This document shows, piece after piece, positions 7,099 to 50,300 of a DNA stretch of 64,000 bases. The stretch's first letter is position 1; the number at the start of each line of letters is the position of its first letter. The stretch lies in assembly GCA_027596035.1 (NCBI GenBank), contig JADGJA010000022.1, positions 1-64,000 on the forward strand, written 5' to 3'. Source of the stretch: Thoreauomyces humboldtii (Eukaryota; Chytridiomycota; Chytridiomycetes; Spizellomycetales; Powellomycetaceae). Under the pieces are notes generated by a model. That model saw only the letters and a program-made list of their open reading frames with translations, was not told the origin of the DNA and did no database searches. A program made the position numbers and the translations under genes.

Positions 7099-7368
7099 GA
7101 TGCCATATTCCACGGGCATGAGCCTTCCCGCTTATAGTTTGCAGCAACCACTCCTCGACTTGGACCCGGCGTTGAGTAAAAACCTCTTTCTTTTTCTTAC
7201 GTTTAATGAAGCTCTCCTGTGTCGTCGAATCTCAAAGTCCCTCCTTAGCACGAACCTGAACAACTCTTGCGCAGCGTGTTTTCTGTTTGCAATCTTCAAC
7301 TCCCATCTCGCTAGAACAACTTATAGGATTCTTTACGTTGCTCGCTTTCAAGACACGGTCGATGCGGC

Positions 7369-8929: not shown

Positions 8930-11900
8930 TCAAACCTCACAAACCAGACACACTCCGCTTCGTATCATGACCTGCGGGTGCTCGGCAGGTAGTTCCACCG
9001 TTCCTATCCGATAAGTTTGCCCTGTGGAACCGTCAGGCGCATGTATGTACACGGGACACGCAGTCTTGTCCACACTACTGCCGCTACGACGGGAGCTTGA
9101 CGAAGTCGCCACCGAAGATGTCGAAGAGAACGAGGCGTTCGTACGAGAGCTTGGTTGAAGCCATATCTATCGACGAATCAGAAAAAGATGATGAGATGAC
9201 AGTGTGTTGCAGAAACTGAGAGAGGATCGTAAAAACTCACGCAAGGAATGGAAGCCGTTTGATCTCCCGCTCGGAGTTCTTTGAGCCCCGGAAGCCCTTT
9301 ATCCCAAGCGGCGCCGACCAGAACGAGGCCCGAGGCGTAGACTCCCAGTTCGGGTCGGGTGGGCTGTTTCGCTGAGACGACCAACCCCTCCAATTGAACA
9401 TGAGTGCCGGTTGGGCGGTGGGCCAGAGGAACTATATTGGCAACCACTGTAGTTGTTGAAGTGGGGAAGAAGAGCATTAAGAGACTGCGAGTATTCGAAC
9501 AGCTCAATTTACGAAGCCTTACATTGGAAAAGCGCTTGAGGCGCCCAGAGCTTGGTAATATCGTGAACCACGAGCCCCTTTCCACCGTCTTCTCCTTCCG
9601 CATTCGCCATCGCGTACCAGTGCTTGATGTATGCTAGCCTTCCAATCAAATCGTCAGTCCACCTTCCCACATCCATTCGCGTGGGCGGAAACAATTCGGC
9701 CCAGGCTCTTGGAATCTGGTTCGCGGTGATAGCTGACGACAGATCCTGCGCATGGAAGGATGCATTGTCGGGAGTTGAGCAGAGGAGTACGAGGAATCTC
9801 GCCACCGCGTAGCGATAAAGTCGGATGTTATCGAGGAGAAGGGATGCGAGGAGGATGGCTGTCGGAGACGCATTTGCTGACATCGGCAGGACCTCCACAT
9901 CGAACATTGCTGGGTCCAGGACGCTGCCGGTGACCACGCCATGGATCCGGTTCATGAAAGTTGCGACGAATTGCGTAATAGCCGGTTTTGTGTCGGAGAG
10001 GTATTGTGGTGTCCGATGGTACCTTCTGATTGAAGCTTTGATATCCTCACTGATAGCGAGATTTCTTTTGACGAATACAACGGGCCCAAGACAAAGCGCA
10101 TGCGAGGTTGCTAACGCCGTGGCGGGGATTTCCCTCACTGCTCCGATGAAGGCGGCTACGTCTCCTCTCATCAGCGCCGAAGCCGCTGGCTGTAGCGCTT
10201 TAAGAATCGGATCTTCCATGTTCCAGTCAGTGTTGACAAGCCCATCGAACAAGGCCAACATTAGTCTTCTATCCGAAGGGTCGGGAAATAGTGGACCGTA
10301 TATCGTATCCGCGACTCCGACGACACGCTTGATAGCGGAACGCTCGTTTCTAGATCGCGCGAACAATGTCCTGAGCATGCGGGCTGCTAAGTAAAGGGTA
10401 ACACTTGGAACGTCGAAGCGAACTGAAAAGTCCGACCAGGCAAGGTCAGCGCGAACAGCAAGGCAAGAGTGAAAGTATAGCAGCTTAAGGAGCGTCGCTC
10501 GATACACGGCATGGTGTTTGAACTCGAATGGGGTGATATTGGCTTCGAGCAAGGGCCTGGCCATGAGAAGGGAGCGCTTGACGTCGCTATCGGAGTCGAC
10601 GAGCTTGTATATCGTGGATGTGTATGTGGAACGTGGTGTAAACTGCGACGTGCTGCTGCAGGTCACCCACACACGGAAGTTCTTGTGGGCGGGACGTTCG
10701 CGAGGAGCCAGTGCGCGTTCGAGAGCGGTAAAATGAGCAATTGGGGCTGCGATGGCGTGGATCAATACCCATCGACCCTTTTCGACGGCTTGATCGATTG
10801 CTTCCGTTGCGGCAGCAATATCGGCGGCGTTCCCGCCCAGGAAGACGATGGTAACCGTCACTTTCTTCTTTTCCGTGAGAGCACGAACTAGGGTGTTTGG
10901 ATCGTCCCCGTTCGGATCTATGTGAAGAAGTTGAGACCCACCTCCGCCTTCCCATGCTGAGATGACAGCAGATGGGTCCCCTTCAAGAACTGCTTCACCT
11001 AGCACTTTTGCAGAATAATCCTCCATCCATCTTCCAAGAGTATCAGGACGGATGCATGTGAGTAGCAGCATCCTATCGATGGGCCCAAGAAGCCCATTCC
11101 ATTTGCCAGGTAGTAAGCACCTCCAAGGTTCTTGAGAGCGAAATACATCTTCGAAGCTCTCACCCTCCAAAGAAGAGGAAGGTCCACTTCGATTGGCCAA
11201 GCGCACGAAGTCAGCAACGAGGCGTTCTCGCCTGAAAAGAGGAATCCTTGCTCCTAGGGACAGCAGTCGCTGCCATCGGGAGTCCTCTAGCCACTGCGGA
11301 GATGGGTTCCGTGGCAGCTTTACTTCGAGTGTCGTTGCCGGATTTTTCATGGGATTTGAAGTTGACTGTCGCAGCAACAGGAAATCCAGCTGATCTTCCG
11401 AAATGATGTATCCGGCGTTCTCGACTCCTTCCTGATTGGCAAGCTCCGCGGCTATGAGAAATCCGAGCAAAACCCTCGCTTGGCTCGCCAAACCCTTGAT
11501 TGATAATGTTTGGAGTAAGACAGTAACAAAGTTTCTGCGCGCAATCGCCCAGGTCGCAGTGTCGTTCAGAGGTAGTCGGCCAAGGCATGACCTTGCTGAC
11601 TCCATTATCGCAGTAAGGGGCACTATGAGCTCCCGCTCCACGCGCCCGGCGTTTACTACCATTAATGCGATCCGAGCAGCTGAGATCGCCACCTCCCGCA
11701 ACCACTCAATCTGAGTACGGAATGCATTGTCTATTTCGAGTGTTGCTGGAGGGATCTTATTGACAGCTTTGAGTTGCTCTTCGAGTCCGAGAATGTTTGC
11801 GCAGAGATTCCCGTTGAAGAACGTGGGATCCGATAAATCCATCTCCAGCACAAAGTCTTTGGCCTTTCTGGACAGCGACCTTGCAGTGCTCCGACGTGCC

Positions 11901-14900
11901 ATGGCTTCGAAATCCATTCGACTGCGTTCTTCTTTGTAATTCTTGCCTCCGCTTGCTTCCAGTAGGTTGTCGAGGATCCGTTCGGTAAGAAGAGATAAGG
12001 CGGGTTCGTTGTTGATCGAATGACAGGTGCGACGCCATTCGATAGGCACATCCTGGCTGTCATGATCCAGTAAGAGAACGATGTAAAGGCGGAATCCATC
12101 TGATGATTGGGAAACGTCTGCTTCTCGATGACTTCTCGCAATAAAGCGTTCGAGTACTGCGCTCATCTTTGCAATTCGTAATTTCACTACTAGAGGTAGA
12201 CCTTTTGTCATTGCGGCCGCCAATGCCTCCTCCACGATCACATCGTCCGCCAAACCATCCAAAGACACATAAGTCTTGAGCTTCTCTGCCGCTTTCATCC
12301 ATGTGCAGAACTGGTCCAATGGGTCAAAGATGAGGGGTATCTTGTGCGCCCACTTTGCGATTAGCGCATTATCGCAGCTGAATCGATCAGGGGGCAGGCC
12401 CCAAGTGATAAAAGAGTCTTCCACTTTCTCGTTGCAGAGGAAGTTGCAGAGTGAGAAGGGATGATTTGCGAAGCGCTCAATGGGCAATCCCGCAGCCTGA
12501 AAGTGGCCTTCCCATTGACGCCATATGGTTTGGCGTGCAATTTCGTCGTGATCACCAAGATAAGCTAGAAGGAGAAATTGAAAACTGAGTTTCTTTCACA
12601 GGATATACTATCGGCATGAAATGCTCACCAATAGTCCAAGCAGCCATGATTGCCTCCGACGGCAGCACTGCCCTCTTTCCCTGCATTTCGATTCGTTCCT
12701 CACTCCATAGCCGTACCAAGAACGTCAAGGTGCTTTTCAGGCCGCCCATTTCCGTATTTCTTCTCTCCGCAAGCTTATACTGAGCGGCAACATGCTCCTT
12801 CTCCTTGATCTTGGCATCGAATGAGCTCCTCATTCCTGAAAGCTTGACTTCCAATTGTGCATAAAGTTGTCGCTCCTGCTCGACGGCCTTCTCCTTCTCC
12901 TTTACTCTTTTAGCAAGACTCTCCGCAGCTGTCCTTCGAGGTTGCAGAATCTGGTATGTCGCGTGATGTTCGCAAACCGACGAGATCCAGTCTGCGATGG
13001 CGCCCAATGGTCGGGAAATGGCGTGGATTGCCCGAGTCTCGGAATTGTCCATGCATTCCTGAATGCGAGTCATCTGCGCTCCGGTCACAGTCGTAGGATC
13101 AAGGGCTGAGACCAACTGCTGCAGCCGTTCCCCGAAAAGCAGACGCTGAGTGGCGTCCCAGATCGATTCCTGTGATTTGACTTCAACGCGGAGAAGGACC
13201 ATCAGAGCCTCGCAGAGTTGCAATGTGCCCGGAGATGGATTCAGCATGGACTTGATCTGCGGTCGTCACGATAAGGATGCAGAAACTGAGAGCACCAAGT
13301 TCACGCGCGAGCGCACAAACCTCGTAGATATCCGCTTTGGAAAATCTTTCGACGGCGTTTCGTGCTGCAAGCACCGCAGGACCGACGACACTCAAGCCCT
13401 GGTCGACCTCGATGAGGACTTCGCTGAGCTGCTCCTCCAATTTGCCAACCAAATCTACGTCGCGCGTAAGGTCCATCTTGACCTTGTCGAATGCTGCGCG
13501 GAATAGGAATACATATTAGGGACGATTTGTATAATCTTTCTGTTGCAAAATTTTGTACCTTCGCGTTCATCCTCTATGGTCTTCAGATACTCTTGCGTGC
13601 GACTCGTTGAATCCCTAAACTTCTCCTTACAGTCTAGAAACGCTAGATCTGCGTTCTTAATAGTCACAAACGCCGCGTCGAGTCTCCCTATAGAGTCATC
13701 GAGGAGCGCGAGATCATGCTGCAAAGCGCTTTGTTTTTCGAAGTATATGTCGCAAAGAGAAGCGATCGCGGTTTCCAGTTGCGAGGTGTGCACCATGTCG
13801 GTTGTGCTTACGGTATGTGGCACAGAACAGAACAAGTCTCCAATGGCATCCAGGTAAGGCAGAGATGCTTGGCCAGCCGGCGTACGATGATTTACGAGAT
13901 GCCGTATGCTCGCAGGGGACTTCTCATTCACCAGGAGAGTTGAGCAAGCATGCAAGTATGCCGAAAAGTGCAATTGACTCGAGGTCCAGAGGCGCTGAGG
14001 AGAATCTAAGTCGGCAACGATGACAATATGGACCAGACTTCGGAGGTGAATCGCCGCCGCGGCCTTCGTGTCGACGTCTTCGAACGTGTTATCCAGTTTT
14101 GCACGCTTCTTGAGGAGCACAACGGTCGTATCGTCGAGGAGCATCTCAAGTAGCAAGTCAGATGAACCCCACTTGATGTAGGAAAGCAGAGCCTGGTGAT
14201 GCTCGGTGGTGAGGTTATGCCAACGAGCACACAGAAGGACAGGCTTCCAGGTATGTAGTGCGTTGCGTGAAGCTTTCACAAAATCATCTGACAGGTCAGA
14301 AGATGGAGGCAGTGCAAGAGACATGAAGTCTGCGTCCAAAATCCACGCAGCGAGCTGGACAGTGGTCTCAACGTCTCGATCAACGGTACCAATTACAATG
14401 GATGCAGAATCCAGGCGCGCCGCGTGACACAAATTCAGGGCCGCAAAGATTGCATCGGGATGCAATACATTCGACCGGCCTAACATCTCCGGTAGCTTCG
14501 TTTTCAAGTGTGCCGCGTATTCTCGAGGATTTCTCAATGGTGTCCAGAATGCGCGAGATCCGGACACAGCACGATCAGGCACGTACACGATCGGGGCATC
14601 TCCCACAAACACATCAGAATACCGAAGCGTCCCGAAGGCGGTATCAACCAGGTCTCGGAAAGCAGCGTCGTATTGTGGTAAGTCGGACCGGAGCAAAGAA
14701 TCGCGTACACCGCGATGCCATCCATGGGCCCAGATGCTGACGACTGTGGTGCTCAGGGTCTTGTCTGCAGCGTGAAGAGCTGTACGGAGAGCATTGACGG
14801 CATGAGTAAGCGAGAAGGCATAGTGAGGCGTCGGGATGGTAGCGCGGAACGTGTTCTGAATCGTTGCAAGGAATCTCGCGGATGCCTTCACGAGATCACT

Positions 14901-17900
14901 AGCAAGTTGAGCAGGTCCTATAGTGTCGTGGAGAGCCCTCGTCAGGGCAGGCAGTACCAGTTCATTAAGCCTCTTCTCCACGTCGGCCTCGAGTGCCAGA
15001 GCGATGAAGTGCCGGAGGAATCGCGGGGAGCTAGAGCCAGGTGATGAAGCAGTGCCGCTGTCAAACGTAGCAATAACGGCCAGATCCTCGACAGCGATCC
15101 ATTCGCTTGTGTTGGATGAACTGCCATACCATCCCCCAGACTCCAGCAGCCCACGCCACAGTTCGAGACTAGGGTTTGCGGTTTCAGATCTATACACAGA
15201 CATGTTTAGATCGTCAAGATGCGCTACGGCTTGTTTTCCACTGAGACAACCGAGTGCGCCTCTTCTTTTTTCAGTTAGCCCCGCGCGGATACGGGCTCGG
15301 ATAGATTTAGGATCCGCGTGGACAGCTTGAGAGATATGGATAGGCTTTCCTGAGCACGCAGAAATAGTGCGCATATTTATCGCGCTATTCGCACACGTGG
15401 TCTTTCCAGATCCACGAGGCCCGCAGAACATCGGACGGTGTCCTCGAGGAACTAGGAGCTGCACAAAGTATGCCGTGCGCGTGACATCCGTCGTTGTAAT
15501 GAAATCGGTGCTGTATCCAGAGGCCAGTTCTCCTCGCTCTGCGCTCAGCTTCTCCCACGGCGTCCATACGAGAAGGCGTGAATCGAAGTAGCAGTCATAG
15601 ACTTGCATCTGCTTGAAGGTACCTAGTGGAGCGATGTCTTCCTTGGACACCTGGCAGATTCGGAGAAGCGCTGCATTTATCTTATCTGAAGCTAAAAGGC
15701 CTTGTAGGTGAGCACTGAAGAGCTCGCGCTCTTTGGGAGCAGAGTAGCATCCAACTACCCAAGCGACGGCAAATGCGTACGTAGTCAATAGCCAGCACTT
15801 TTGTTCCGCGGTCGTGAAGCGCAAGAATCCAGCTGGAGTTAGATCTTTCACGGAAGCTGCGAAGAGATCGAATGTATGGCAAGCAAGAATGGTATCGGTT
15901 GTTGGAGGGCTTCGCGCAGGTAACCGTTGTGTCGCAAATTTCAGCATTGGATGGAGGATGTAGGTCTGCGCGGCATGGACAATATGAAAATGCTCCTGTA
16001 TGGACGGAAGGTGCTGCTTGAGCCGTACAGTCAACATCGCATCAAGACTTCCCAGAGCCCCGAGCCTGGAATCCATGTGAACAATGCTAGCATTGGTGAG
16101 TAGTTCCGGCTGTACTGACTCTAGCGAATCGGTCTCCACCACGAATCTCGTCGTGCTGGGAACATGGATAGCCTGGCCAAGGGCAGTAAAAGTCGATGTA
16201 CTGCAGTCAGTCAAAGGTTTCAGGAGTTCCAGCATGCTTGGCGTCAGTGAACCATCCAAGACTATCCATGATGTGCCATGGATAGGCTGGTTTTTGGCAT
16301 CGAACGCTCCGGCAATTTCCCGAATGGTGAGAGGCAGGATTCCCTCAATTAGCGAGCCGGTTATGGGGTCAAGGGATCCAACCATATCCGCTTCATCAAG
16401 CGCGGACACGTAGATACGATGAATATATACGTCCTGAAGTGCGGCTTGCAGGAGCTCCATAGCAGTGCTTTTTCCAGCCATCACATCTCCAATCACGATC
16501 ACAGGGCCAGTATGGCTGCACAGAGCATCGTAGAGGTCCCCAATCTTAGCGAGCATGTAGTCGTTGACAGCCATGTGCCTCAACCGTGCAATAGTAGTGA
16601 CCCTCTCGAACAGATCTATAAGCCTGGGAACTACGGCCCTACGGGCGTCAAAGACGACCCGAACGGCGTCGCTGAACGTCTGTCGGTCGCATAAAGACAG
16701 TTGTGATCCGTAGACAGCCTCGCATGCGTCCGCAACCGCATCTGTCTCGGTGATTGTCTCCCGGTCGCTCTGCAGTATGGCGGCAGCCGTGCGGGCCACG
16801 GCTTCAGGGCGATTGAAATCGTACTTCCTTAAAGCGAGGGTGTTCGCCATGTTCTGCAACAACGCCGCAAGCTTGCGCGCGAGCCCCGGAGCCCCAGAAA
16901 ATCCACGAGCATATAGAGAAGTCTCTAGAAGAGCGCGAAGGTCGGGTCGCGAAAGACATATCGGACGGAAGAGCGTCCTGACCGCGTGAGGAAGCAGAGG
17001 AGTTGCTTGTAGTGCAGAGAAGCTAGCGAACACGGCCGATGTCTTCAAGGTTAGGAACTGTTGATTCTCGTAACTGAATGACGAGACCCTGGTCTTAACA
17101 GCGTTCGTAAAGGCGCGGACTGCTGCGCTAATGTGATGTGCAGAGGCAGCAAGGATCTCGGCGGGGAGTGTGTCAAAGTTTTTGAAGCACAACCAGGCAC
17201 CAGTCCCAAATGTGCCACTAAGGGTACGCTGCAGGGCTCCTGGCTGCCACCCGCGAGAGCAGTCCAAATTCACGCATCGAACTCCGAAGATGTCCGCCAG
17301 ATCCTGCACCATACTTGAAGCTCGGTCACCCTTCACCATCGGGCACAGACCGTATTTGAGCAAAGTAGCTGTTTGACCCATCGCCCGGTTGATTTCCGGA
17401 GCCGAGGGCAGACGAGGCACTGACGCAAACTCAAAGCCATACGGTACCGTGTGATGCATCACATGCACGTCGATGGACTCGTCAGTCAGGGTAAAGCGGA
17501 ACCGGGCAGCAATCTCGTCATACGGCAAACGCGCTGTCTCGGTGGTGTAAAGTAGTCCCGCGATGAGAGTCTCGATTGACATTCTTTGCGCGGGCGGCAG
17601 ATTGGCATTCTGCAACGACTGAATGCAGTCCTGCAGCGTCGCGATGAGGTGCCGTGGGGGTGCATCTGCATGATCATGCTGCCGAGCGATGATGTATCGA
17701 TTCCATAAAACCTGTCCAACAACTGCAAGAACCTGCGCAGAGAGGCTTTTGACTGCTGTCGGCACCACCAGCTTTTTCCTCTCAACCACCGCAGCCACAA
17801 CCTGCCTTCGGAGAGTGTTTCGAATGGCAAGCTCGAGCTGGGCAAGCCACGTTTCTAGCGCGGTGGTGGCTGTCACCGGGTCGTCGAGTATGAGCTCCTG

Positions 17901-20900
17901 CCCATCAAAAGCTCTGACTCCGACGATTTTGATGACGACGCTGCCATCGCTTGTAAGTTGAAAGCGTGGTCGAGAAAAGCCTTCGACAGCGTCCGCTGAT
18001 CCGGCATCAACTGCTGGGGACCCTGAAGAGGAAACTGATGAACGAGCGAAAAGCTTGTCTGAAGCCTTGTCTGCCACAGAGAGACGAAGTGGGGAAGCGG
18101 TTTCCGTTGCATATGAGCTCACTGATGGGCGTCCGCCTACTGAATCCCGTCCTTCCAATGGCTGCCGGATGACGCCGTTATCGCGTGTAGAAAGACGAGC
18201 TGCAGACTTCTCGAGGACCGATTGTCGGACCGTCCCTGGTAGTACTTTGACAGCCGAAGAACGCAACGACGACTCAGCGTCCAACTCCCCAACAACGTCG
18301 CCTTCCTCCCTTAAAATCAGACTTTGCAGGTTGTCGAAACAGAACACCAAGAACGGATCGATGGCGTCGACAGCTGGTAGTGCTGCAAAGACGTCCAGCA
18401 TCTGATCGTTAGTGAGAAAGTAGAACCTCGGGAATGTCGCTCGCTTTGACTCGACCAGCCGGACAACTCCTTCTGAGATAGCGTCCAGTCGCCCTGTAGC
18501 GCCCGCAATCATCTCATGGAGATCTCCTCGTAGTAACAGAAGACTCAGTCGGGGGTTCCGTGTGACAATGTCGGACAGGATATTCATGATCTTTGTCACG
18601 GCTGTGAAATTGTCAGCCTGTTCACGAGGGAGCGTGGAAGCTTCGCCCGAAAGGGCAAGAAGCGGGTAAAGTCTTACGAACACGGTCTGGAAGCTCTTCC
18701 AGGCTTCCAGAGTGATTTGACCGGCTTGTAAACGACGTACCCAAGTGTCGAGACGGACCGCAATGCCGTCCGAGGAGTGAGATTTCGAAGCTAGAGCGGC
18801 TGTGCGAATAAGGAGATCGTCGAAAACTGACAGGGCGTCGGAAAAGTTCTGGATGGTGTACATGTCCTGGGTCGCGTATGGTGCCACTTTGAAGGATTCG
18901 GAAGAGAGCTCTGCGAACAGAGCTTGCAGTGTAGTCTCAATTTCATGCTCGTTACTGGCTTCACGAGAAATTTCTGCTATAATATCTTGCACTAGCTCCA
19001 GGTCTAGTTCCATGGCCTTTAAAAAATGCCAGAATGATTAGCCAGAGATGTTCAAGAACGGACTCGAACGCTACACGTACCTGACGCAATGTCAGCCCGG
19101 TGACATCTTGCAGTGTAAGTCCCACAAGTTTACTCATCTCTGCCCAGTGTTTCTCCTTCAAGGCTGGATTCCGCAAACTGGCGATGACGCCAGTGAAACG
19201 ATCGAACTCGGCAATCTCCTCGATCATCCTCCCGATCACTAGGCTTGGACCCCTCATGTCCGTCAGGACAACTACGAGACGGTCAGCGTCCATCTTCCAC
19301 TTCGTAACGGCATTGCTGACGGCCGGACCGTCCAGGTCTGTAAAGTACGTGTCAAGCCACTTTGCGATGCTGGTGCGTGTGGATTGCACCAGGGTCCAAA
19401 GGGTTTCGTGAGGTTCGAAAGCGGACTCTGTCGACATTAGAAGAGTGAGCGGAGTAGGTGGGATCCCGATAAGGTGTTCGCGGGCAGGAATGGAGCGGCA
19501 TAGGCGTTTGACGCGCTCGAGACGGTCGCGTAAGTAGATGATGCGTGGGGTAAGTTCTATGCAGTTGTTGATGTCTTGAGCCGATGCAAGATGAGCAATT
19601 TCTGCTCGATACGCTTCCAAAGAGGAAAGGACAAATTCGCGGTCAATGTCGAGCTGCAAAATATCGACCAATCAGAAACGGGCGTTCAGGAGGTTCCAAA
19701 AGGAAAAAAGTTGAAAACCTGGCTCATTATCTGCTGCTGCGAATCTTCCATGCGCTCCCATGCACGTCCTATTTCTGCCTCCAGTTTCACGGGCCAAGCA
19801 CAAGTGGTCCAGTACAGATCGTTCACGTCATCTTCCAAGCCAAGCTCAAATTCATATAACAGCTGCCACAGTTCCTTGAGTCTGTCCAGCTAAATCATAC
19901 CCTGTGAATAAAGCGCGGAACCCTGAAGAAATCCTCTCAACTCACCTGAGAATTGTGATAGCGTATCTGAGCGGAACATGTGTCTACTGCCTGTTGTAAA
20001 GTATGCAAGCACTGCGCGTCCTGACCCGGGTCTGCTACAATTTGAGCGTAAAGTATCGTGTAAGCCTCGCACAGTTCATCGCAGGTACCCTTGAGTCGTC
20101 CCTGCAGGGCCTCTCGAAACACGCTCAAAGCTCGACGCGTAGCGGTGTCATACAGTTTTTGAATTCCGGTGCAGGAGACGGTAAAGGGGGGAATATAAAC
20201 GAAGGGTAGGGACAGAGCAAGATTGGTTTTCACTGCATCCCGATATTTTGAAAGGGATTCTCGCAGAAGAGGAATGTCTATGACATCGGCGGTCCATAGT
20301 GATGCTGACGGGGCAGTTCGAATCAGAAAATCTCGGGATGCATATGTTTGGAGTAAGGTTTCAATGGCCGCCGATGCAGTGCGAACAACGTCGATGACGG
20401 CGCCGATACCGGCTTCTACAAGACTGGGATCGTGTGTCGCTGGAGAGATCCAGGCTTCGGCTTCTGGGAAATGGAGAGCGGTCATAGCCAAGACTTCGAT
20501 GCGGGGAACGGCGCGGATGGTATGAGTTGCGGGAAGATTTATGATATTTCGAAGCGTTGCTTCGACCTCATCTAGGCTGGGGTCCAGTACCACGCATGCA
20601 GCTGTGTCCGGAAGAGTATGATCGAGGTTGATGGGTTCCCCGTTTTCGGCTACGACCATCATGTGTAGAGTAAAGAGTACGGGCACTGCGGTATGATCGG
20701 TGAGAGGAGAATGAACTTTACACACTTCCGGGTGCTCCAGGTGTGGTGCTGGGTAGGTAAAGTACACCCCGAAGATCCCAACTGCGTGCTTCAATCCATC
20801 CAAAAGGGTCTCTGCTAGTTGAGTCGCCATAAGTGCATCAACAAGGTGCAGGAGCATCTTTAGGCGCGACGACTTGTAAACCGCCATATTTCCGTTACGA

Positions 20901-23535
20901 AAGTCGAACGAATCAGTCAGTGTTTCGTGAAGTATTTCGCAGATCTTCCGAGGCCAGTCGTACGACAGCTTCGCGGCCACCCATGCAGTATTGGCGTGGA
21001 CCCGATCTCTGAAGGCCGCAAACGGGATGGGTAGTCCGTGATTCTTACGGAAAAAGGCGTCCTTGCTGTGCAAAACTGAGCGGAGCGCAGCAAGGACCTG
21101 TACGAGGGCTTTCTGGACGGCGGTATTTGCGTAGAACATGTAGGTAGACAGACTTTCCGTGGCCATCGCCACAGTGTTGAACAGTCGGCCGTCCTGGTCG
21201 TCAGTCCCTGCACCTGATTGAAGAAGAGCTGAAGCCACCCAATTTCTTGCTTTTCCCGTCAGAAGTGTAAGAGCTTCGGCCGCAGTCCCGTCGCGAAATT
21301 CTTTATCGGCTCTTTTCATCGCAAAAAGGAATTCGTCCTCTACTTCCTTTACACAGGTAGCCAAAATCGCCGGCTACAAGGAGAGAATATTAGAACGCTC
21401 GCTGACTTAACCGCTGTATCTACTTCTGCTAACCTGATCCCGTCTCACAAACGTTCCTATCCGGCCGATGATTGCCTTTCGGAAAGCCATTGGCAATTGT
21501 GGCACTCCTTGCCCGCTCATTTCTCCGACGGCATCTGCATATCTTTTATCTTCCATAACCGCAGCTCGAGTTCGAAAAGCATTTTCGATCCGATCATAGA
21601 AAGCTTCTCGACTCTCGCCTTCGAACAAAAGATTTAGTCTTTTGACGAGCTTCTGGGGCCCTGACGGATGCCAAGAAATAGTGTACAAGTCTGTTACAGA
21701 GTCGTGAGACAGTACGTCACACTTGAGCCAGGTCCAGTCTGCCGAGGTGTCGGTAGGACTGTCGACCGCCTCGGAGTCCGGGTATTTGAAGTATCGGCTA
21801 TAAGCCAAAGTATAAGGAGTTCCGCGAGAAGGACCAAGCAACAGCCATTCGCCTGGCGTCTTGATCTGTTGACGCAGCTAGTTTGTTAGCATGCGCAATC
21901 GACCGATGAATGAGCCACTAAGCAACTAACCTCACCTCAAACTCGGGATCGTCAAAGCATTCTAAAGGCACCGTAGCAGGAGTATTGTTACGGTTCGGCG
22001 CACGATAGGGGTCGCGAAATGCGGAATCAAGTACGTGCCGTGAACTATATGGCTTTTGTGCGACTTCCGGAGCGAGACTAGCCTCTTCAGCAATCTCTGC
22101 CCGAGCTTCGAGAATCATCAGCTCTTTAGTCAGATCTAGTCCATGTGAAGACTTTGAAACACTGAATCCGGAACGGTACTTGATTAGCATCCTGAAGGGC
22201 GACACCAAGTCAAGCACTTACGTTAGTGGGAAACGATGCGGTGTAATCACTTTTGTAGATGGTCTGCTCGATTGCGGTCTTTCACCTTGCGGTCTGCCCG
22301 ACAGCGGCCGAGCGGTTGGAGGAGGTCTGCTAGATTGAGGTCTAGCTGGGAAACCATGAGGAACCCTAATGTGTGTTTCCTCCGCCTCAGGAAGCGGGAC
22401 CCATGTCGGTCCGCTTGCCACACCTTTCTCTCGAGGTTGAGCGGATGTTGGTTTACTGTCTAGATATGGAACCCTCTCGGTGTCGAGACTAGCAGAACTG
22501 TTCCATCCCAAAGCGGCAGTGCCTCGCCGGCTAGCTGTCGCAGGACGACTTCCAACGGCAGTGCTGGTAGTCGTGATCGCCGAGGTGGGACGAGCGGTGT
22601 GTGTCCTGACTGTAGAAGCGCGATTTCCAGTGGACGGTCTCGTTCCCGGCTTACTCGACGAGGGCCGGGATGCATCGGGCACCGACGATGCGAGTGGATG
22701 TCGAGCGCGAGCCGACGGCGCTCTCGAGACAGGCAGGCTAGCTGACCCCGGTGCCCTCCAGGCCCGAATGGGTTCTGCAGGAAATCTAATATCCATATCA
22801 GCCGTTTCCGTGGAGGACGGGTCTTCCGGAGCCAGTTCGATGAGCTCGTTTTCGGCAGCGGAAGCAGACCCGACCTGTACGCAGTCTGCCTGGTCCATTG
22901 CGAAAAGAACTCTGGTCACAGCCTGGGGGTCGTAGTGAAACTCTCGTCGCATAGTTGGCAGAAGAGCGCTCTGCGGCCTTCCAAGTCGATTGGACGGCAA
23001 CGCGGCTGAATACTTTTTTGCTTTTTTTTGGATTGACTTCCGTGCTGCTGCAGCTGAAGCGCATCTTCGGACACGCTTTTCCGGTTGAGCAGCTTCAACT
23101 TCGGATCTCTGAAACTGGGGAGGCGCCGGAGCTGGGGAGGGGACCGGATGATCTTTGATCAAGACCTCCAGTTCTTGGTATGCTCGACGAATATCTTCTT
23201 CTGCTTTGATGTAAGCAGGGTCGTGGAGGAGCGATCCGAGAGGATCTGGACCTAAATCTGAGCCCTCAATGTGTTCTGGGTCCTCCCAGAGCGTTAGGGG
23301 CCAAGTGTCACGATCTGTGGTTAGGTCCCCGTCCTCGGCAAACATGAGTTGGACCAAAGGCGGAGCATGGGAAAGATGACGGTGCCGTTGAGACCGAGGG
23401 CTGAGAGAACTTGTTTGAAAGTCATCTTCGAGGTCGTCTGTCCCCAAGCCGTTGAACATATCTAGAGGAAACCTATCAGGCCCAGTTCCAAGTTTGCCAG
23501 CATTCACAGATAAGCATACTTGACGCCACGGCCAT
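8930..23535 (-). CDS. Divergent dynein heavy chain with degenerate AAA1 (DNHD1-like)
   Basis: Thirteen exons join in phase to about 4,610 residues: 23535-23520, 23461-22222, 22161-21936, 21877-21434, 21373-19946, 19889-19719, 19653-19081, 19016-13559, 13493-13321, 13256-12629, 12564-9523, 9446-9241, 9166-8930. Order: disordered Ser/Arg/Pro-rich N terminus, tail, linker (FPRFYFLTND near 18.4 kb), six AAA modules, stalk and microtubule-binding region (13.5-12.6 kb), and C-terminal domain (GVYASGLVLVGAAWDKG, then CPVY). AAA1 has lost its motor site: GDRASSM replaces GPAGTGKTE (about 17330-17310) and CFKNFD replaces CFDEFN (about 17189-17172). AAA2 keeps GDVMAGKST (16490-16464). AAA3 keeps GPRGSGKTT (15422-15396) and LDDLNM. 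AAA4 (GTVDRDVETT) is degenerate. Family knowledge: DNHD1 is a dynein-like protein needed for sperm flagella. A structural rather than motor role is inferred. An unspliced alternative N terminus would start at 23894. Confidence 0.85.
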
Positions 23536-24421: not shown

Positions 24422-25314
24422 ATGGGTCGCGTTATTCGTGCTCAACGTAAGGGTGCGGGTGGTATCTTCAAGTCCCACACCAAGCACCGCAAGGGAGCGG
24501 CTCGCCACCGTGTCAACGACTTTGCTGAGAGGTGTGTTTTTTATCTCGCGTTTATACACGATTGTGAAAATCCTGTTAACCACGATTGATTATAGGCACG
24601 GTTACATCCGCGGCATCGTGAAGGAGATCATCCACGACCCCGGACGTGGTGCTCCCCTTGCCCGCGTTGTCTTCCGCGACCCCTACCGCTTCAAGCAGCG
24701 TGAGGAGACCTTTGTCGCCACCGAGGGCATGTTCACCGGACAGTTCATTTACTGCGGAAAGAAGGGTACGCCGGTTGTCAGAATTTTTCAGTCAAGCGCG
24801 CGGGCTAATGATCTGCTATTCGCCTGCAGCTGCTCTTACTGTCGGCAACGTCCTTCCCCTTGGCTCCATGCCCGAGGGTACCATCATCTGCAACTTGGAG
24901 GAGAAGATTGGGGACCGTGGATCCATTGCCCGTACCGCTGGAAACTACGCAACCGTCATCGGCCACAACGTTGACGAGGGCAAGACTCGTGTCAAGCTCC
25001 CCTCCGGCGCCAAGAAGGTCCTTCACTCGGCTTGCCGCGCTGCCGTCGGTGTCATCGCTTCCGGTGGCATCATTGACAAGCCCCTGCTCAAGGCTGGTCG
25101 TGCTCACTTCAAGTACCGTGCCAAGCGCAACTCTTGGCCCAAGACTCGTGGTGTTGCCATGAACCCCGTGGATCACCCCCACGGTGGTGGTAACCACCAG
25201 CACATCGGTCACGCTTCCACCCTTGCCCGTGGAGCTCCCCCCGGTCAGAAGGTCGGTCTCATTGCTGCTCGTCGTACCGGTCTCATCCGCGGTACCAAGA
25301 AGCTCAACGAATAG
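24422..25314 (+). CDS. RPL2: 60S ribosomal protein uL2 (yeast L2 / human L8)
   Basis: Three exons (24422-24531, 24596-24765, 24830-25314) give 254 residues, exactly the usual eukaryotic length. The protein starts [13 protein letters not shown] and contains [63 protein letters not shown] and [20 protein letters not shown]. The last block includes the histidine loop that lies near the peptidyl-transferase centre. uL2 binds 25S rRNA and helps shape the catalytic core of the large subunit. Codon choice is strongly biased to C-ending codons, as expected for a highly expressed gene. The long antisense frame across the gene is a shadow of that bias. Confidence 0.98.
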
Positions 25315-41332: not shown

Positions 41333-44300
41333 TTACTCGTTAAGCTGACAGAGCAGCGCTACACCCTTCGAAATCCAGTAGTCGGATGGACGGTCCGTCG
41401 GGATGTTGAGGGGCACAACGAAGTTAGTTGAGTGTCCCGTAGTTGACAGCGTTCCAGCTCGCGCGGACGTCTTGTATAGTGGGCAGATGTAAAGTCCCGG
41501 TCCAGCCTGAGTTGCTTGCGTTGGAACAAAGCGGATCAGTGGCATGGTCTGTTCAAAGGAGTGAAGGTTAGCATGGGTAACCTCAAGAAATTCTGACGCA
41601 AAGATTGGTGCGTACCGAAAACATCTCCATCGGGAACGAATCCTGCAAAAGTCGCTTCTCTCGATCCCACCGTGCTCCTTCCATGTACAGTCCGTGAACG
41701 AGCACACCGTCCTGGTCCGATAAAGGTGCCGTAACGGGTCGCGAGTCCATTTCCGACCCCCTCGTGGGCGCCCGGGACGAGACGGAGCTATCGGCCGTGC
41801 CAGGTGCGCCGGACGCGAGGGCGCGAGGGTCGCCAGCGTCATAATCGAGAACTTTGAAGGCGAACGCCAACGTGTCGATGGGAATGTTGTATCGACGCGC
41901 ATGATTCTGCAGCACGCCGGTGAGGAATCCTTGAGGGAAGAAGAAGCCTGGAAGCCAGAACGAGGTCGGCTGGCCGTTGTCGGCCCAGTCTCGGATGAAA
42001 GTCATGCGCTTGTGGAAGTCCTTGACCCATGATGCGAGAGGCTTTAGGGACGGGTACGCGTGACTGGACCATGCAGTGGGGACCTAGAGGTGTCTGCATA
42101 AGCCGCTTGTTCAAGTGATAGCATAAATTCCGGGGACCTCACCTCGTTGTTGAGTAGACTTTTGTACACCAGTTCTAGCTCTGCGCTCATGACCACCAAA
42201 CCCTTTACGGCCTTCACAAGGTTGTCGAGCGAGTTCCGAACGATGTTGTTCAGCTTGTTGAACCGGGCCGCTTCCTGAGATAGCACCGTGCTGAGCGAGT
42301 TGAGCATGCGACCCGTCTCATCTTTCTTGAAGAGCTCCAGGAGCACGGAGCTAGGAGGCTCCTCGTTTGTGCTGCCTCCTGACGCAGAACCAGTGAAGCG
42401 CGCTGACTTTGGACGTTCAGGTGGTATTTCGAGGATGAGCAAAGGCGGCCAATCAGCCAGGATGGTAGTTGCCAGCGACGTGACAATCTCCTCACTCGAC
42501 TTGCCACCGCCAGCGGTGACGAGTCGAGGTTGGACTTCCAGGATGGATCGGAGAAGTCGGCGTGTCTCCTGAACCTGGAAGCTGATGTCTGCGTTCTCGT
42601 GCATTCCAAACACGGAAGGCTCTTCGGTAAAGGGTAGCTTGTCGATGTAGCTTCGGAAGCTGGCGAGCTCTCCATCCGGTGGTGCATAGTACACGCCCGA
42701 TGGGGAGAACTTGTATGAGTCGTCGAGGATATGCGGCGTGTAGAATCTGTTCAGAATTGAACGCAGTGATCTTCGGTCCCAGTCGTCCGTTACTCGGCCA
42801 CCGAATGTGATCTCGCCGGTCAGGTAAGACAGGGCGTCCCAGGGAATCGTTTTGTACTCTTGCAGCATGTTTTTGAGGATGGTAATGGACACTTCGAGGT
42901 CCGAGTTGCTCCAGTCGTACAGGATGTTCCATCCAAGGGGGCCATACTTTTTGCGCTCCTGAATGACGGCGTTGAAAAAGCAGACTCCGAAAAGTAGCTT
43001 GCGGAATTTTCCTCCCTGTGGTGGATGGTCGTCGAAGAGATCCCTTGAAACGTCGGCGAAACTGCGCGCAACGTTAGCACGTAATCCTTTGGGGGGCTCA
43101 TTGGTGACTTTGACTCCGTCCTGCAGGACAGCAATCGGGAACACCTTGGACGGCATCGATGACAAGAACATCCGGAAGTTCTCGTGTATCTCTGTCTCCG
43201 GAAGGGAGAACTCTTTGACGATTGCCTCAAGCCGGTTCATCCATGATGCGGCAAGATGACAGTTCTGTAAGAAGACCCAGTCACCGGAAACGATGGCTCG
43301 GCGCAAGAGCTGCTCGGCAATCGGTCCCTGACCTTGACCCAGCGAGATCATATGGAGACGCTCTTGCATGTTGATCTCTTTGGACGCAGCAAACTTCATT
43401 AGCGCCGAGACTGGATCAGATCCGGTCGACAAGATGAAGATGAAGGGAGTTCGGTTGTCGATGTCTTTGTAAGCCACCGCAAGGTCCAGCGGCGGAATAT
43501 CGATGTATTCCGATCCCATGTTCTTCTTGACGAAGTCAACACACGCAGAGACTAGCTTTTCCTCTCGGAGTACTTTGATGAGGAGAAGACGCTGAAAGTC
43601 GGTCAGCTGGCCTCCTGTTTCGCCTGGCACCGTGCAAGAATATGGCGTATCTGACTCGACGATGGTCTCCCATTCCATCGTGTACATCTGCATGTGCTCG
43701 ATCGTGTAGCCGAAATCGGGAATCGTCTTGGCCAGGTCGCACAGATTTTCCCACATCGTGCTCGAAAGCCAGCGGACGTTAGGCTTTGTCGGTAGCTCGG
43801 CTCCGAGCGTGGGTGTCCCGCCTCGCAAAAGGAAGTTCCACTCATAGTCATCGATGGACTTTTTCTCGCGCATGATCTGGATGCATATCATGAACGAATA
43901 GGTCATCTTGTGCTGTTCGAAAAGTCCTCGAGAGACGTTCGCAAAAGTGCTGTAAGTAGTATTTTTGCAGAGGATCTCGATGCGACGCTGGAGATCGTCT
44001 GCCTTCTCGGAGTGTTGGATGCAGGTGCTGAACAGATTCTTAAAGTACTTGAGCGAGAACTGGTACATCGAGTCAATGCCAGCGAGATCTGCGATGACGA
44101 AGTAAAGTACCGAGCCCCGGATTGCGACAGGGCGGTATCGCTCTCGCGCGGTATTGATCTCTTTTTCGGTCATCTCAGCTTGAGCCACACGCTCTTTGAT
44201 CGCTGCTGAGGTGACCTTTGACTGGTTCAGAGTATTGATCAGCTCCTCGTCATCGAGAATGTTGCCTTCGGAATTGAAAAGAAGCTTGAGAATTCTCTCT

Positions 44301-47300
44301 TCGATGTCCTTCAAAGCCTTCCGATCGGCAGCAATATTGATAATCAAAGAGTTTCGCTGTTCTTCGAGCTCGGGGCGCTCGAGCCGCACGACGTCTGCGA
44401 GCAGCTGGCCTTCAAGACCCACTTGCGTCACAGTAAAGTTGATAATGGTCACCTTGATACAGACCTCGGGAAGGTAGTGTGGGTTCGAAAGCTTCGTCGT
44501 GATATAGAGCTTGAAATTTCGGTCGTACTCGACGAACGAGTCTCCGAGTTTCATCAAGAGACGTCCGCCTTGTCGTACAGTTTGCTTGAGAAGCAATGGT
44601 TCGAGCGAGGGATCCAGTTGTTCTCCCACATCTTCCATGAGCACAGGTTGACCCGTGCGCACGGCGTTTTCCAGCGAACGAAGAAATTTGGGATCGCTGA
44701 GCTTAACGATCTTGAGATCGTTGCCTTCCATAGCTTTGATCCAGCGGTTTGCTTGTCCTTGCGGGTCGATCATCAGCGGCCATCTTCTGCCTCGGGTAAC
44801 CAAGATTCCGTTTTCAATTGATAGAGGGTCGGCGGGCAAGCCTTGGATGTTCCAATCTCGAACAACGGCCGGGTCTGCAAGGTTGTCGAAGAGATTGAAG
44901 TTTTCCGACACCGGGATGCCGATTTCTTGACAACGTTTGATCCAGCCGCGCACAAGCTCAGCTCGGAAGGTAGAGGTAAAAGCACCAAAGTAAGCGACGC
45001 AAGCAGCGCTGAGAAAGATGTTGCCGACCAAGTCGTCGATTTGCTGATTGAGTCGCTCCACGGACTCGGCCCATCGAATTTGCTCGTCGGCTAATGCCGT
45101 CGTCAGTTTGCCGGCTCGTGCAAGGCGGCGAGTGGTTTCTTCCATTTTGTCGGCCAGTTCTCGTTTGCTGGAAATGGATTGCTCGTACTGAGATTTGAGT
45201 TTGCCGAGCTGCGATTCTACTTCGGCCAATGCCGCCGCTTTCTCGGCGAGCTTAGCCCGAGTGGACTCCAGCGCAACGGCTGCCTCCTCGAGTTTGCGCC
45301 TCTTTGGTGCAACCTCTTTGTTGACCCGCGAGTACATGTCCATGGCAATGACCCACATACACATACTTTTGCAGGCTTTTGAAACCTTCTCTACAGCATC
45401 TGGGTTGAAGTTTGGATTTTCGATGTACTTCTTGAGCTTCTTCGTCACGGACTCAGGAATATTGTCTTTGTCGAATTCTGCCATTTTCTTCATGAACTGA
45501 GGGTCCGAGAGAAGCTTCTTGGAACTGTCCCAGTCCGGCTTGGACTTGAAAAGCGTGCAAATGGCCTCAAGAACCATCAACACCGCTTCAGGAGGCTTAC
45601 TAAACACCTTCAATTCAGCGATGTCTTTCTTATCGAGGGAGTCCAAAGCTTTATAAGCGGCGTTCAGAGCCGGGAGAGCTTCATCGAGATCTCGCTGTGC
45701 TTCTGCAGCAATTGCCTCGGTCTCTGTTGCCTTCGCTCGTACAATGATCTCTTCCTCGGAAACCACTTTCCGCACTCCATCAGCCGTTTCCTGGTCTTTC
45801 CCGATTTTGACCATGAGAACTTCCGTGTCTTGTGCACGCTGTTTTAGTTCAGGTCCAAGGAGCTCGAGCTCGACTTGCATCTTGGCCACCAGCTCGTTGG
45901 TTTCGAGTAGCTTGTTTAGACCGTTCCTAAGACGATCGCGAGAGGACCCTAGTTCCTTCCGCTTCTCTTGCAGCATAGAGATATAGAGATTGATGAGCTC
46001 AAGATACGACGTTGGTGTCGTGTAATAGCGTCTCCGCAGCTCGGCCCAGAACTTTTCTGCCAGTACTCCAACTGACTCGTGAATCTCGACACACATCTCT
46101 GCGATCTTGTCCTTCATTACGTCTGACCCAAGGTCAACGAACTCCAGGAACCGACGTGACACTGCCAGCAATGCCTCTCGAGGCCAAGCATCGAACCAGT
46201 CGATGGTGCAACAGTTGACGAGCGAGGGGAACATACGGCAACGTGTTCGGAAAGTCTCGCCAACGGGACTAGTTGCGAACACGATGTGGAGATTGTCCCG
46301 AACACGATTGATGAAGAATTGGTAGACGCTGTCGCGATCCTCTGGGAGGCCTTTTTCACGACACACTGAGCGAAGATCGCCCAGTATCTTTTCGCGCTCA
46401 TCGAACTCAAAGAGATTCGGGACTTCTCCCGAGTTCAGGATATTGTTTACGTCCTCCAAGAATGTCTCGGTTTTGATTTGAGTGTCCGAGAGAAGGAATA
46501 CAGTGTTCTTCCCTTCTTGTCCGGCAAGGCGATACAGTCGTTTAATGTCCTCGCGCCATTCCACGTGTCCGTAAGTTCGGGTAAGCTCGATTTGAATGCA
46601 CTGATAGTCGGAAATATGACATGCTAGCCGCGTAAGCGATTGCTTTCCTGTTCCGCCAACACCCACAAGCAAAGCATTGCCACGCGGTTGCCGGATGATA
46701 CGATTAATTCGTGTGATGTGCTGCTTAGCGTCCATAAAGAAAATGAGCCTGACGTCTTTGTTGTTTGTCACGTTGTACTCCTCGAGATACTCTTCCAGTA
46801 GCGTGTTCATCACTTTCATGTCGCCCATCTCGACGTACAGTCTCTCATCCTGTGGGACTCCGCGCTTTCCGAAGTCCCCGAACATGATCGGCTTTTGGCT
46901 CAGCGTTTCTTTCGGAATGCTGACTCCGAAGTTCTTTTCGACCAGCTCGGAGAGCAAGCTATTAAAGTACGTGCGATCCGTATCATCGATCAGCCGATCG
47001 TGAAAGATGCGTGAGGATTCATGACAAAAGAGCTTCACAATGTCCATCTTGGCTTGCACGACTTGCGGCCGTGCCTGACAGACTCCCTGCACCACGCGAG
47101 ACAGGTCACGCAAGTTGAAGGTGTAGTGGGATTTTGCTGGCGTAGGAAGCAGTTCCGTGCACATGCGATGGTAGATTTCGATAGAGGAATTGACGATCGG
47201 GTCGCTGACACCTTTGACCTCGGCTGTAAATCCATTGCGAAGGAAGCCTTCGACGATGGCTCGGAAGATCTTTCCAAGCGATACCTCGCTGGGAGCGGGA

Positions 47301-50300
47301 ATGTTGAAGAGGTTGAAATGTCGCAGCAAACGAGGAGTTACATGGTTACGTCCACCGCCCGGAGGTGCGCAAGCAGAGACGATCTCGATATCCTCAACAG
47401 CTTTCCAGGTAAGCTTTTCCCGATCGTAGAATCCGTGGAAGTCAAGGTACTGACGAAGCAGTTCAATGGGAGGCTGAGAACCGTAGGTGTCAAGTTTGGG
47501 CATGTTGAGGTCGTCGACGAAAAGGATGATTTTGTTGAACCCAGTTGGAGCACCCATAATGTTTTTGCGTTTCTTTTCCAGCTTGATCTCCATGATCTGC
47601 TGCGTTTGAGCGCTGTTCGTTTGTGCCGAGAAGTTGAGGGCCACGGGTACCCATCCATACGTTTTGCAGCATCTGTTCAGCATGTTCTGAATGATGATAG
47701 ACTTTCCGACACCGGTGTTTCCGGTAAAGAGAGTTGGGAAGCCGTTGAGAGTCAGAGCCTCGAGGAAGTATTCGTACTTGACAGTGTCGCTGGTGGGAAC
47801 CATCATTTGGAAAAACGGCACATCTGCCGTGTACTTGAAAGCAGGCACGAGGTCATCCCATAGCGCAAAGGTTTTTGACTTCAAGTCAATGTAATAACAG
47901 AACATGTTGTTTGCCGAGGGTAGCTGAACATCGGGAATTGGACTGCCGTCGAGTAAGTCACGCACAAAGGTGTCAAAGGCGTCCTGATAACCGTCTGCAA
48001 GATTTCCTCCCAGCGCCCAGATGTAGGAAAAGACGAAAAGGTGGGAGAAGAGTGGTTTCAGATCGCCAATAGCGCGAGTAAGGTCAACTTCTTTCTTGTT
48101 GATGAAAGTCTGAAGGAGTTTGCACAGCGATTCGACCAAATTCAGGTCCACTGAACGAACGTACTCCTGACATTGTTTACGAACGAATCGTAGTCCGGGG
48201 TCGATGTACGTATCGAAGTAAAGCCACAATTGGTCCTTGAGCTCTTGCGGCATGCCGCGCGGCAGCTCGCGCGTCCATTTCTTGACAAACGCGCGCCAAC
48301 CGAGATTCGAAGGATCCATGTAGACCATTCCACAACGACTGACGGTAGCGGGAGAAGCTACCGCTAGATCCGCTACTTCGAAAAGCATGTGCATTGTGTT
48401 GCTCATTTTGATACGCTCGCCGTTGATCAAAGTCAAGAGTTTGTTGTCGTCGAGAACGGTATTCATGTTTTCAATCCAGAGCGCATCGACTGGACCGTCA
48501 CATACGGTCCACTTTTCATCCAGGCTGTTATCCTGTACTTGCTGACGAAAGACGTAGCCAATCAAACCGTCTTTCCATTCCATCGTCGCGAGGTTGAACT
48601 CGCCGTAAAGTTCCATCATCGAGATGCACTTGGGATTAAGGACCCATGTTTTGATTGCTTGGAAGTCTTCATGACCGCGCTCTTTCAGTTTGGTGCAAGC
48701 CTCTTGAAGCACCTGGTAACAGGCAGTCTTTCCTCCCCCTGTTGGGCCAACCAGCATTACCCCGTGACGAATTTTGTTCGTTTCGTATAGCTGGCAGATG
48801 CGAGTCACGAAGCTTTCCTCCACTTCCATCTTCTTTTCCAGGATGATTTCTTTAATGGTAGCGACCAGCGCTCCATAATCCTGTTCCTTGATTCCTACTC
48901 CAGGGAACAAGTCCGAGAGAATTCCCCGGAAGAGGCCGATATCTTCGGCCAAAAACTTGGGCAAGTTGGAGTCACGGAGAGCTCGAATAAGTACCATCTC
49001 CTCGCTGAGCTCTTGGTTATTGCGCTTGAGTGCCCCAGCCATTGTGAGCACCGACTTCACTGCACGCATGCCGAAATCGTAGTGATCTTGCTGAGAGAGT
49101 TGCTCGGAACAGAGCTTGTAAAGGTTGACGACCTTTCCTGCCAGCACGCGTGCGTTTTCAAAGCCTTCGGAGAAAAGCATAATCTCAGCAATCAAGCCGT
49201 AGTCTATCCGAGAGTAAAGACGTCAGTATACTGGAAAACAAAATCAACATTGCGATTCGCCATACCTGGAATCATCATAGCAATTGGCCTGAAAAGAGCT
49301 TTCAAGTTGTCGGGCAACTCTTGTCGACCAGCATAACCAGGGTTCATGGTGATGAAGGCCGTGCATGTGTCAATGAGCCTGATTTCTCGACCCTCGAACA
49401 TGAATCTGCTGGCCTTCATGTCTTTTGCGTTTTTGATGGTCAACAGCTGCTGGGCGATGACAGAGAGTACCTCGATGTCGATTCGGTTGAATTCATCGAA
49501 GCAGCACCATGCGCCAGACTGCGCAAGTCCAGCAAACATCTTGCCCATCATTTTGTAGTCCATTCCGTCGGAGCAGTTGTAGACCACACATTGCCGTGCC
49601 AGCGCCTTGGCAAGATCCTTGACCGTTTCAGTCTTGCCCGTTCCTGCCGGGCCGAGAGGGGATCCTCCCAGGTTTAGCTGCATCGCTCCGGTGAGAGTGA
49701 GGTAACACCGATCCGTGAGGGGTGTGATGACTAGTCGCGCTGAGCAACCGAGATATTCGTATCCGTATACGAAGGTGGACGTCGACATGCGAACAAGGCA
49801 TGTGTCGGAGTCAACGTCCCAGTAGTACCGCTGCTGCTTCGTCCACTCGAAGTCTCCAAGACCGGTAATCTTTGAGTCCATGAGATTCTGCACGATATCT
49901 CGGTTGTGCACGTCCATGGTGATCAAGGCTCCAAGAATTGCACGCTGTATCTTGGTGAGATCACCGCGGACCAGAGCAGCGACTCCGGCAAGATTCTGAG
50001 ACGAACTATCAGATTAGTATTGCTCACAGTCAACCTTTCGCGAATTCATAAGTCTCACCTTTGCACACTTGTCTTTGAAGGTATGAAGAGCTCGAATTGG
50101 ATCTGCTAATTTGAGGCAGTCGCTGACGTCTCGACACCACAGGACTTGGTTTCCGGTGAGCACGACTTGACCGACGTGCTCTCTGACCCAGTCAGAACGT
50201 TTCGAGTCTTCAAACTCGGCTAAAGCCTGCTTGATGAGGCGGCGGAGGACCGCCACCATTCCTTCTTCAACGCTTCCCAGCCAAGCTTCCACGTTTCCGC

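Follow-up and report, generated by a model that had tools for sequence, protein, structure and literature searches.

A stretch of 64,000 nucleotides from the chytrid Thoreauomyces humboldtii, a member of the Spizellomycetales (contig JADGJA010000022.1, positions 1 to 64,000; hereafter the window) carries on its minus strand, from about 23459 to 8930, the gene of a full-length dynein heavy chain with a degenerate AAA1 module. Our hand-built gene model consists of 12 exons joined by 11 GT-AG introns of 56-76 bases each and ends at the stop codon 8932-8930. The open reading frame (ORF) extends up to 23909; the open protein has 4,752 residues counted from the ORF start and 4,602 residues counted from the methionine at 23459, which is the likeliest start, the first methionine being uncertain. 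The features of the gene are listed below in window positions.

8930..23459, minus strand: gene of a dynein heavy chain whose AAA1 is degenerate, in 12 exons (public copy P0001, HKX48_003468)
21614..21802, minus strand: tail motif YSRYF...W..C.V...VKRLNLLF, DHC6 / DNAH1 type
17406..19401, minus strand: linker (DHC_N2) to the start of AAA1, matched at 6.4e-15 and 9.3e-40 on two exons, with the intron 19080-19017 inside
13559..19016, minus strand: one exon without interruption, covering the greater part of the linker, AAA1-AAA4 and the beginning of the stalk
17310..17336, minus strand: AAA1 Walker A position, VKGDRASSM, lysine lost
17172..17198, minus strand: AAA1 Walker B position, AWLCFKNFD, Asp-Glu lost
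16467..16490, minus strand: AAA2 P-loop, GDVMAGKS, intact
16251..16268, minus strand: AAA2 Walker B, WIVLDG, Asp kept
15399..15422, minus strand: AAA3 P-loop, GPRGSGKT, intact
15204..15230, minus strand: AAA3 Walker B, AVAHLDDLN, Asp-Asp kept
14367..14396, minus strand: AAA4 P-loop position, VIGTVDRDVE, degenerate
12554..13757, minus strand: stalk coiled coils and microtubule-binding domain (MTBD), the latter at about 13332-12918 (PF12777, 2e-5)
9524..12340, minus strand: AAA5, AAA6 and the start of the C-terminal domain
8930..9446, minus strand: last two exons, C-terminal domain, ending ...RSGVCLVCEV

Pfam matches to DHC_N2, AAA_6, AAA_7, Dynein_AAA_lid, AAA_9, Dynein_heavy and Dynein_C, with MT barely above the cut-off, recognise the linker, AAA1, AAA3, AAA5, AAA6, the lid, the C-terminal domain and, marginally, the stalk; AAA2 and AAA4 have no family-specific Pfam match and were placed by alignment alone. 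The modules follow one another as in other dynein heavy chains: linker (DHC_N2), AAA ring, stalk and C-terminal domain. The public annotation of the gene (P0001, HKX48_003468) is a "hypothetical protein" of 4,080 residues, which differs from our model at both ends and has an identical AAA1.

A preliminary description of this DNA had proposed a full-size dynein plan over about 4,600 residues, with AAA1 devoid of the Walker A lysine and the Walker B acid, AAA4 degenerate and the P-loops of AAA2 and AAA3 intact, and our gene model agrees with it on all of these points. The Thoreauomyces protein possesses neither the AAA1 Walker A lysine nor the Walker B Asp-Glu pair of a working motor. In AAA4 the intact inner-arm relatives have an arginine in place of the lysine (GVGGSGRQ) and the Thoreauomyces gene has lost the whole loop, not merely the lysine; since the arginine is already present in the intact inner-arm rows, the decay of AAA4 is a smaller step than that of AAA1. 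The span given earlier, 8930 to 23535, was right at the stop end; its start at 23535 is out of frame, and the strand, which is minus, had not been stated. The earlier proviso that a different exon might restore AAA1 can be dismissed, because AAA1 lies in a single open exon (19016-13559) together with most of the linker, AAA2-AAA4 and the start of the stalk.

Searches of the protein database reveal a family of nine proteins from eight chytrid species and six genera (genera as the database names them): Thoreauomyces humboldtii, Powellomyces hirtus, Geranomyces variabilis (two proteins), G. michiganensis, Spizellomyces punctatus, S. "palustris", Phlyctochytrium arcticum and Quaeritorhiza haematococci. 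The last family match scores 336 bits and the next protein 183 bits among the matches listed (best 120 of 466). The proteins of the other species are 26-46% identical to that of Thoreauomyces, and the frame stays open across more than 4,000 codons in the six genera. The AAA1 loss is repeated in P0001, Powellomyces, the three Geranomyces proteins, the two Spizellomyces proteins and Phlyctochytrium, and therefore it is more than chance or a sequencing error. No family member was found outside the eight chytrid species in the database searches (best 120 of 466 in the last one), which is weak evidence of absence because the searches depend on shared 5-residue words. These searches do not show that such a dynein is kept wherever flagella are kept, as had been suggested.

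Scoring of the Walker residues across the relatives had also been proposed. The AAA1 Walker A lysine is lost in seven of the eight species and is retained in Quaeritorhiza (GPSGQGKT), and the catalytic glutamate is lost in all eight: the Walker B Asp-Glu has become KN, GS, AN, EH, DQ or DK, and is never DE. Contrastingly, the AAA2 lysine, the AAA3 lysine, the AAA2 Walker B Asp and the AAA3 Asp-Asp are each found in 8/8 species. Among the 72 near-invariant AAA1 columns only 9 are kept in all eight species and 16, the catalytic glutamate included, are lost in all of them; no near-invariant AAA4 column is conserved in all eight. The individual members keep 60-87% of the near-invariant columns in the stalk/MTBD (n=15), 56-75% in AAA3 (n=16), 36-51% in AAA1 (n=72) and 0-39% in AAA4 (n=18). 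Quaeritorhiza, and Phlyctochytrium with glutamine in place of the glutamate, resemble earlier steps in the loss of AAA1, as far as living species allow such an inference. Since the loss of the main ATPase site is conserved in the relatives of this flagellated fungus, the non-motor, or at least non-standard, dynein that the preliminary description had suspected is real.

The reference data have to be read with their selection in mind. The AAA1 lysine is present in 202 of 202 cases (7 gaps) among 209 "intact" reference rows, a figure which is partly due to selection, because 27 named degenerate rows and gap-rich rows had been removed beforehand. In the unselected first set 112 of 139 rows passed the AAA1 check and 27 were flagged, namely 6 family rows, 5 DNHD1 rows, 4 rows lacking part or all of the region and 12 others; a ray DNHD1 (P0089) passed merely because its Walker B stretch happens to contain "DE". 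In the second set 103 of the 112 new rows passed, and the 9 flagged ones were 4 family rows and 5 rows lacking the region.

The distribution of conservation along the chain is inverted in the chytrid family. In five family pairs the identity amounts to 33-58% in the tail, 33-63% in the linker, 29-47% in AAA1 and 16-34% in AAA4, and four of these pairs have their highest identities in the tail and the linker. Six canonical pairs of the DNAH1, DNAH6 and DHC6 types, however, rank AAA1 first or close to first (73-84%) and the tail last (27-58%). The two DNHD1 pairs, with 29-33% in AAA1 and 27-28% in the tail, do not have the inversion.

The tail and the linker indicate from which dyneins the family arose. 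Tail profile E-values were computed for a set of 225 tails, and the trees were made with FastTree (the 135-row tree) or by a "quick" method with support from the Shimodaira-Hasegawa-like approximate likelihood ratio test (SH-aLRT) only. The family tails match the DHC6 profile at 3e-56 to 4e-70 and the DNAH1 profile at 3e-17 to 8e-29, and DHC6 matches the family profile at 1e-54; as the profiles of the inner-arm classes overlap weakly, it is the size of the E-value difference that counts. Against the family profile the best DNHD1 row scores 0.018, that is, no significant match, and in the profiles of this tail set the DNHD1 tails match neither DNAH1 nor DHC6 nor the chytrid family. They match DNAH6 (to 6e-30) and P0047, P0057 and P0062, which we labelled "DNAH6 sister" (to 4e-54 in the DNHD1 profile). 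Consistently, the tail tree splits the family from the DNAH6/DNHD1 side with support 100, and the linker tree places the family within the DNAH1/3/7/12 group (SH-aLRT 99) and DNHD1 with DNAH6 (96). The family most likely descends from the single-headed inner-arm dyneins, i.e. the DNAH1 / DNAH3-7-12 / algal DHC6 group. It resembles these chains in tail type, linker, six AAA modules, stalk, C-terminal domain and the Asp-Asp Walker B of AAA3. The inner-arm rows compared read GPAGTGKT and CFDEFN in AAA1 and carry a G-S-G-R loop in AAA4; the family has neither site, save the AAA1 Walker A of Quaeritorhiza, and it differs from them also in a very long ring branch and the inverted conservation. We also considered an ancient class of its own that branches off at the base of the axonemal dyneins; the ring trees permit it, and tail and linker argue against it.

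What such a protein may do can be proposed from the modules that it has kept. AAA1 is the principal hydrolysis site of dynein, where ATP, once bound, detaches the stalk from the microtubule and shifts the linker, and axonemal heavy chains are anchored on the A-tubule by their tail, as stated in a review (PMC7215579). Because tail, linker and stalk of the family are present and the AAA1 site is gone, the protein should dock and hold without stepping. It would dock in the flagellum via the tail; the two modules by which an inner-arm dynein is positioned and braced on the doublet, tail and linker, are now mostly the best-conserved ones. Nucleotide at AAA2 and AAA3 would hold the ring together, and the head would lack the ATP-driven step that frees the stalk. 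The result would be a permanent scaffold, a spacer or an ATP-insensitive cross-bridge (a brake) between doublets, which generates no force. The predicted model of AAA1-AAA2 keeps the dynein fold with moderate confidence (predicted local distance difference test score 74, predicted template modelling score 0.57); its best match in the PDB is a dynein (E 1.8e-24), and the best 50 of 1,382 matches are all dynein-containing entries. Therefore we lean, by a modest measure, towards a former inner-arm motor that lost its AAA1 nucleotide site and became a non-walking axonemal scaffold or ATP-insensitive cross-bridge.

Not all of the data point in this direction. The AAA-ring trees that contain DNHD1 join the family to it with SH-aLRT 97-98 (97 in the tree reduced to one DNHD1 row and three family rows), and with DNHD1 present an inner-arm grouping of the family is rejected by the approximately unbiased (AU) test (p-AU 0.021). 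Without DNHD1 the family shares with DNAH2 and the single-headed inner-arm dyneins a fork of no resolved order, where grouping with DNAH1/3/7/12 is not rejected (p-AU 0.133) and grouping with DNAH3/7/12 alone is (p 0.030); DNHD1 ends up at this fork too when the family is left out. The linker alone does not reject a joint clade of family and DNHD1 (p = 0.18), and the best family tail score in the DNAH6 profile, a weak one from Spizellomyces, is 3e-4. Furthermore, the AAA1 of Quaeritorhiza may still bind nucleotide, since its Walker A is kept; in the Spizellomyces-Quaeritorhiza pair the stalk (36%) stands above tail and linker (33%); the neighbours in the window, the DNAH6-type gene described below aside, give no hint of function; and the flagellar location is drawn from two things, the dynein class and the zoosporic habit of the organisms. 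One would argue from the ring trees, the common fork and the linker test that the family is the fungal orthologue of DNHD1, a single ancient opisthokont non-motor dynein, which was the kinship favoured in the preliminary description. Like the family, DNHD1 is of full length, has a dead Walker B in AAA1 and retains the AAA2 and AAA3 P-loops. However, in DNHD1 the Walker A lysine of AAA1 is present in 4/4 rows (the following Ser/Thr is lost in 3/4); a kept lysine with a lost Walker B is seen within the family only in Quaeritorhiza, the Thoreauomyces gene having lost both motifs. P0093 and P0096 are taken as DNHD1 from the trees, the database giving them no DNHD1 name. Moreover, the tails reject the joint clade (log-likelihood 98 lower, p-AU 1.5e-5), and both the tail profiles and the linker tree given above set the two apart. 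The family and DNHD1 are among the longest branches, the setting in which long-branch attraction is to be suspected, and we read their union in the ring trees as such an attraction. One further ring tree leaves both at the base of the axonemal dyneins with no resolved branching, so that the ring phylogeny proposed earlier returned the union with DNHD1 in some trees and no placement in another. Thus we regard orthology with DNHD1 as improbable: the family, with its tail of DNAH1 / algal DHC6 type, is probably no orthologue of a protein whose tail and linker are of DNAH6 type, and we hold with moderate to good confidence that the two represent parallel losses of AAA1.

Another possibility is that the head acts passively next to an active dynein with which it is paired, or that the protein is a subunit for dynein assembly or transport, instead of a docked cross-bridge. 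The sequence leaves room for dimerisation or cytoplasmic roles, and human DNHD1 variants are described as accompanying broad axonemal disorganisation (PMC9916431); however, the family tail is of the single-headed inner-arm type and none of the nine family proteins has a Pfam match to DHC_N1 (PF08385), so we consider this option rather unlikely. A new kind of motor driven by the ATPase of AAA3, together with AAA2, would fit the retained AAA3 Walker A and Asp-Asp, the near-invariant AAA3 arginines, the stalk and the linker. Nevertheless, the AAA3 site of the family is merely ancestral, because the inner-arm relatives already have [VI]DD[LV]N in AAA3, and the module whose gap closure drives the linker is AAA1, which has suffered the losses counted above; continued movement is therefore even less probable than orthology with DNHD1. 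Finally, fast evolution and the disagreement between public and hand-built models at both ends (4,080 versus 4,602 residues) could suggest a pseudogene or an artefact of the gene model. A frame that has remained open in six genera at the divergence reported here, and in which AAA2, AAA3, linker and stalk have been retained selectively, makes this explanation scarcely credible.

The remaining dyneins of the same genome fit the view that the gene is an additional one. The assembly (20.7 Mb) has 12 heavy-chain genes by grouping of Pfam matches, and the other 11, read from chained ORF pieces whose splice sites are approximate, all keep GPAGTGKT and CFDEFN in AAA1 (11/11). FastTree (135 rows) assigns them to DYNC1, DYNC2, the DNAH9, DNAH5/8, DNAH10, DNAH2, DNAH6 and DNAH1 types and three times to DNAH3/7/12. 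As these intact genes fill the classes, the gene with the dead AAA1 is an extra, twelfth gene and not the sole member of a class. One of the intact genes lies in the window and served as an internal control.

41335..54300, minus strand: second dynein heavy chain, DNAH6 class, AAA1 intact (GPAGTGKT / CFDEFN); span of detected homology

It sits about 18 kb upstream of the AAA1-dead gene on the same strand. The other neighbours, at 5737-8427, 24622-25311, 25638-26855, 31507-32010, 35629-36567 and 39950-40693, are ordinary genes; the types met with are glycosyltransferase-like, RsmB/F-type methyltransferase, ribosomal protein L2, PLOD-type glycosyltransferase domain, PTPLA-like, phosphatidylserine decarboxylase and FYVE finger. 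A flagellar gene neighbourhood was not found when 20 adjacent ORFs were compared with Pfam, which gave ordinary domains or none.

Degenerate AAA1 modules were met with outside the chytrid family and DNHD1 as well, in Saprolegnia diclina SDRG_00412 (P0124), P0126, P0127, P0006, P0125, P0091, P0088, Xenopus P0092 and the sawfly DNAH7-like P0033 and P0048. In these chains Walker A, Walker B or both are altered, and the GK[ST] of AAA2 is kept in all and that of AAA3 in all but P0088; several of them are single gene models and may be artefacts. The linker tree, which contains nine of the ten (P0048 is not in it), places them with the beta outer-arm, DNAH6 and inner-arm groups, away from the family. 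A minimum of seven changes between intact and dead states is required on this tree, a number to be read with caution in view of long rows and single gene models. A shared origin of the family with the dead dyneins of Saprolegnia and P0126/P0127 was rejected, since neither the tail tree (P0127 not in it) nor the linker tree joins any of them to the family, although FastTree (135 rows) sets P0126 beside the family (0.978, long branches). The tails of P0124 (an oomycete protein) and P0126 match the DHC6 type and that of P0127 does so marginally; P0124 stands beside DNHD1 in the linker tree, yet its tail profile is DHC6-like, and its placement is conflicting. P0092 (a Xenopus laevis "dynein beta chain"), P0125 and P0091 are outer-arm beta-like with altered AAA1 Walker motifs and kept AAA2/AAA3 P-loops. 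In the sawfly P0033 and P0048 the AAA1 Walker A is kept and the Walker B glutamate is changed (CLDDFD, CLDNFH), and it is possible that they represent an early stage of the same loss in insects.

Judging from these comparisons, dyneins with a dead AAA1 seem to have arisen repeatedly. The loops of AAA2 and, with the exception of P0088, of AAA3 stay in the AAA1-altered rows, which suggests that these sites serve the ring itself. It is tempting to generalise, though we do so only tentatively and think it somewhat doubtful, that heavy chains have repeatedly become "pseudo-motors" in separate classes and lineages, losing AAA1 and keeping the loops of AAA2 and almost always AAA3; of such cases the chytrid family would be the one with the best sampling, an inner-arm motor turned into a standing cross-bridge or scaffold of the axoneme, whose halfway state (Walker A retained, glutamate gone) would survive in Quaeritorhiza. 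If this is true, the AAA2 and AAA3 sites are the minimum that a dynein ring requires in order to exist as a ring.

Dyneins are usually regarded as motors. Our literature searches found no account of AAA1-dead or chytrid non-motor dyneins among the entries listed (30 of 131, 20 of 84, 10 of 11 and 15 of 173 where the listings were cut short). The 2016 dynein census of Kollmar reportedly contains additional dynein classes of restricted distribution, and the chytrid family may already be counted among them. A passage of one study describes the P-loop 1 sequence GPAGTGKT as identical in all other dyneins (PMC10556659). For a recent atlas of fungal flagellar proteins (2026), 394 reference proteins, for the most part from human and Chlamydomonas, were mapped onto 184 fungal proteomes, and the words "DNHD1" and "Walker" do not occur in its main text (PMC13358043). 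The family can be approached experimentally, because Spizellomyces punctatus has the gene (P0128) and is reported as transformable (PMC7213984, PMC10267658).

DNHD1 variants go with deformed sperm flagella in men, according to one report (PMC9916431), and the chytrid family is apparently an independent parallel to DNHD1. A family in six genera that has no working AAA1 and has preserved tail, linker, stalk, AAA2 and AAA3 separates what a dynein needs for stepping from what it needs to be a part of the axoneme.

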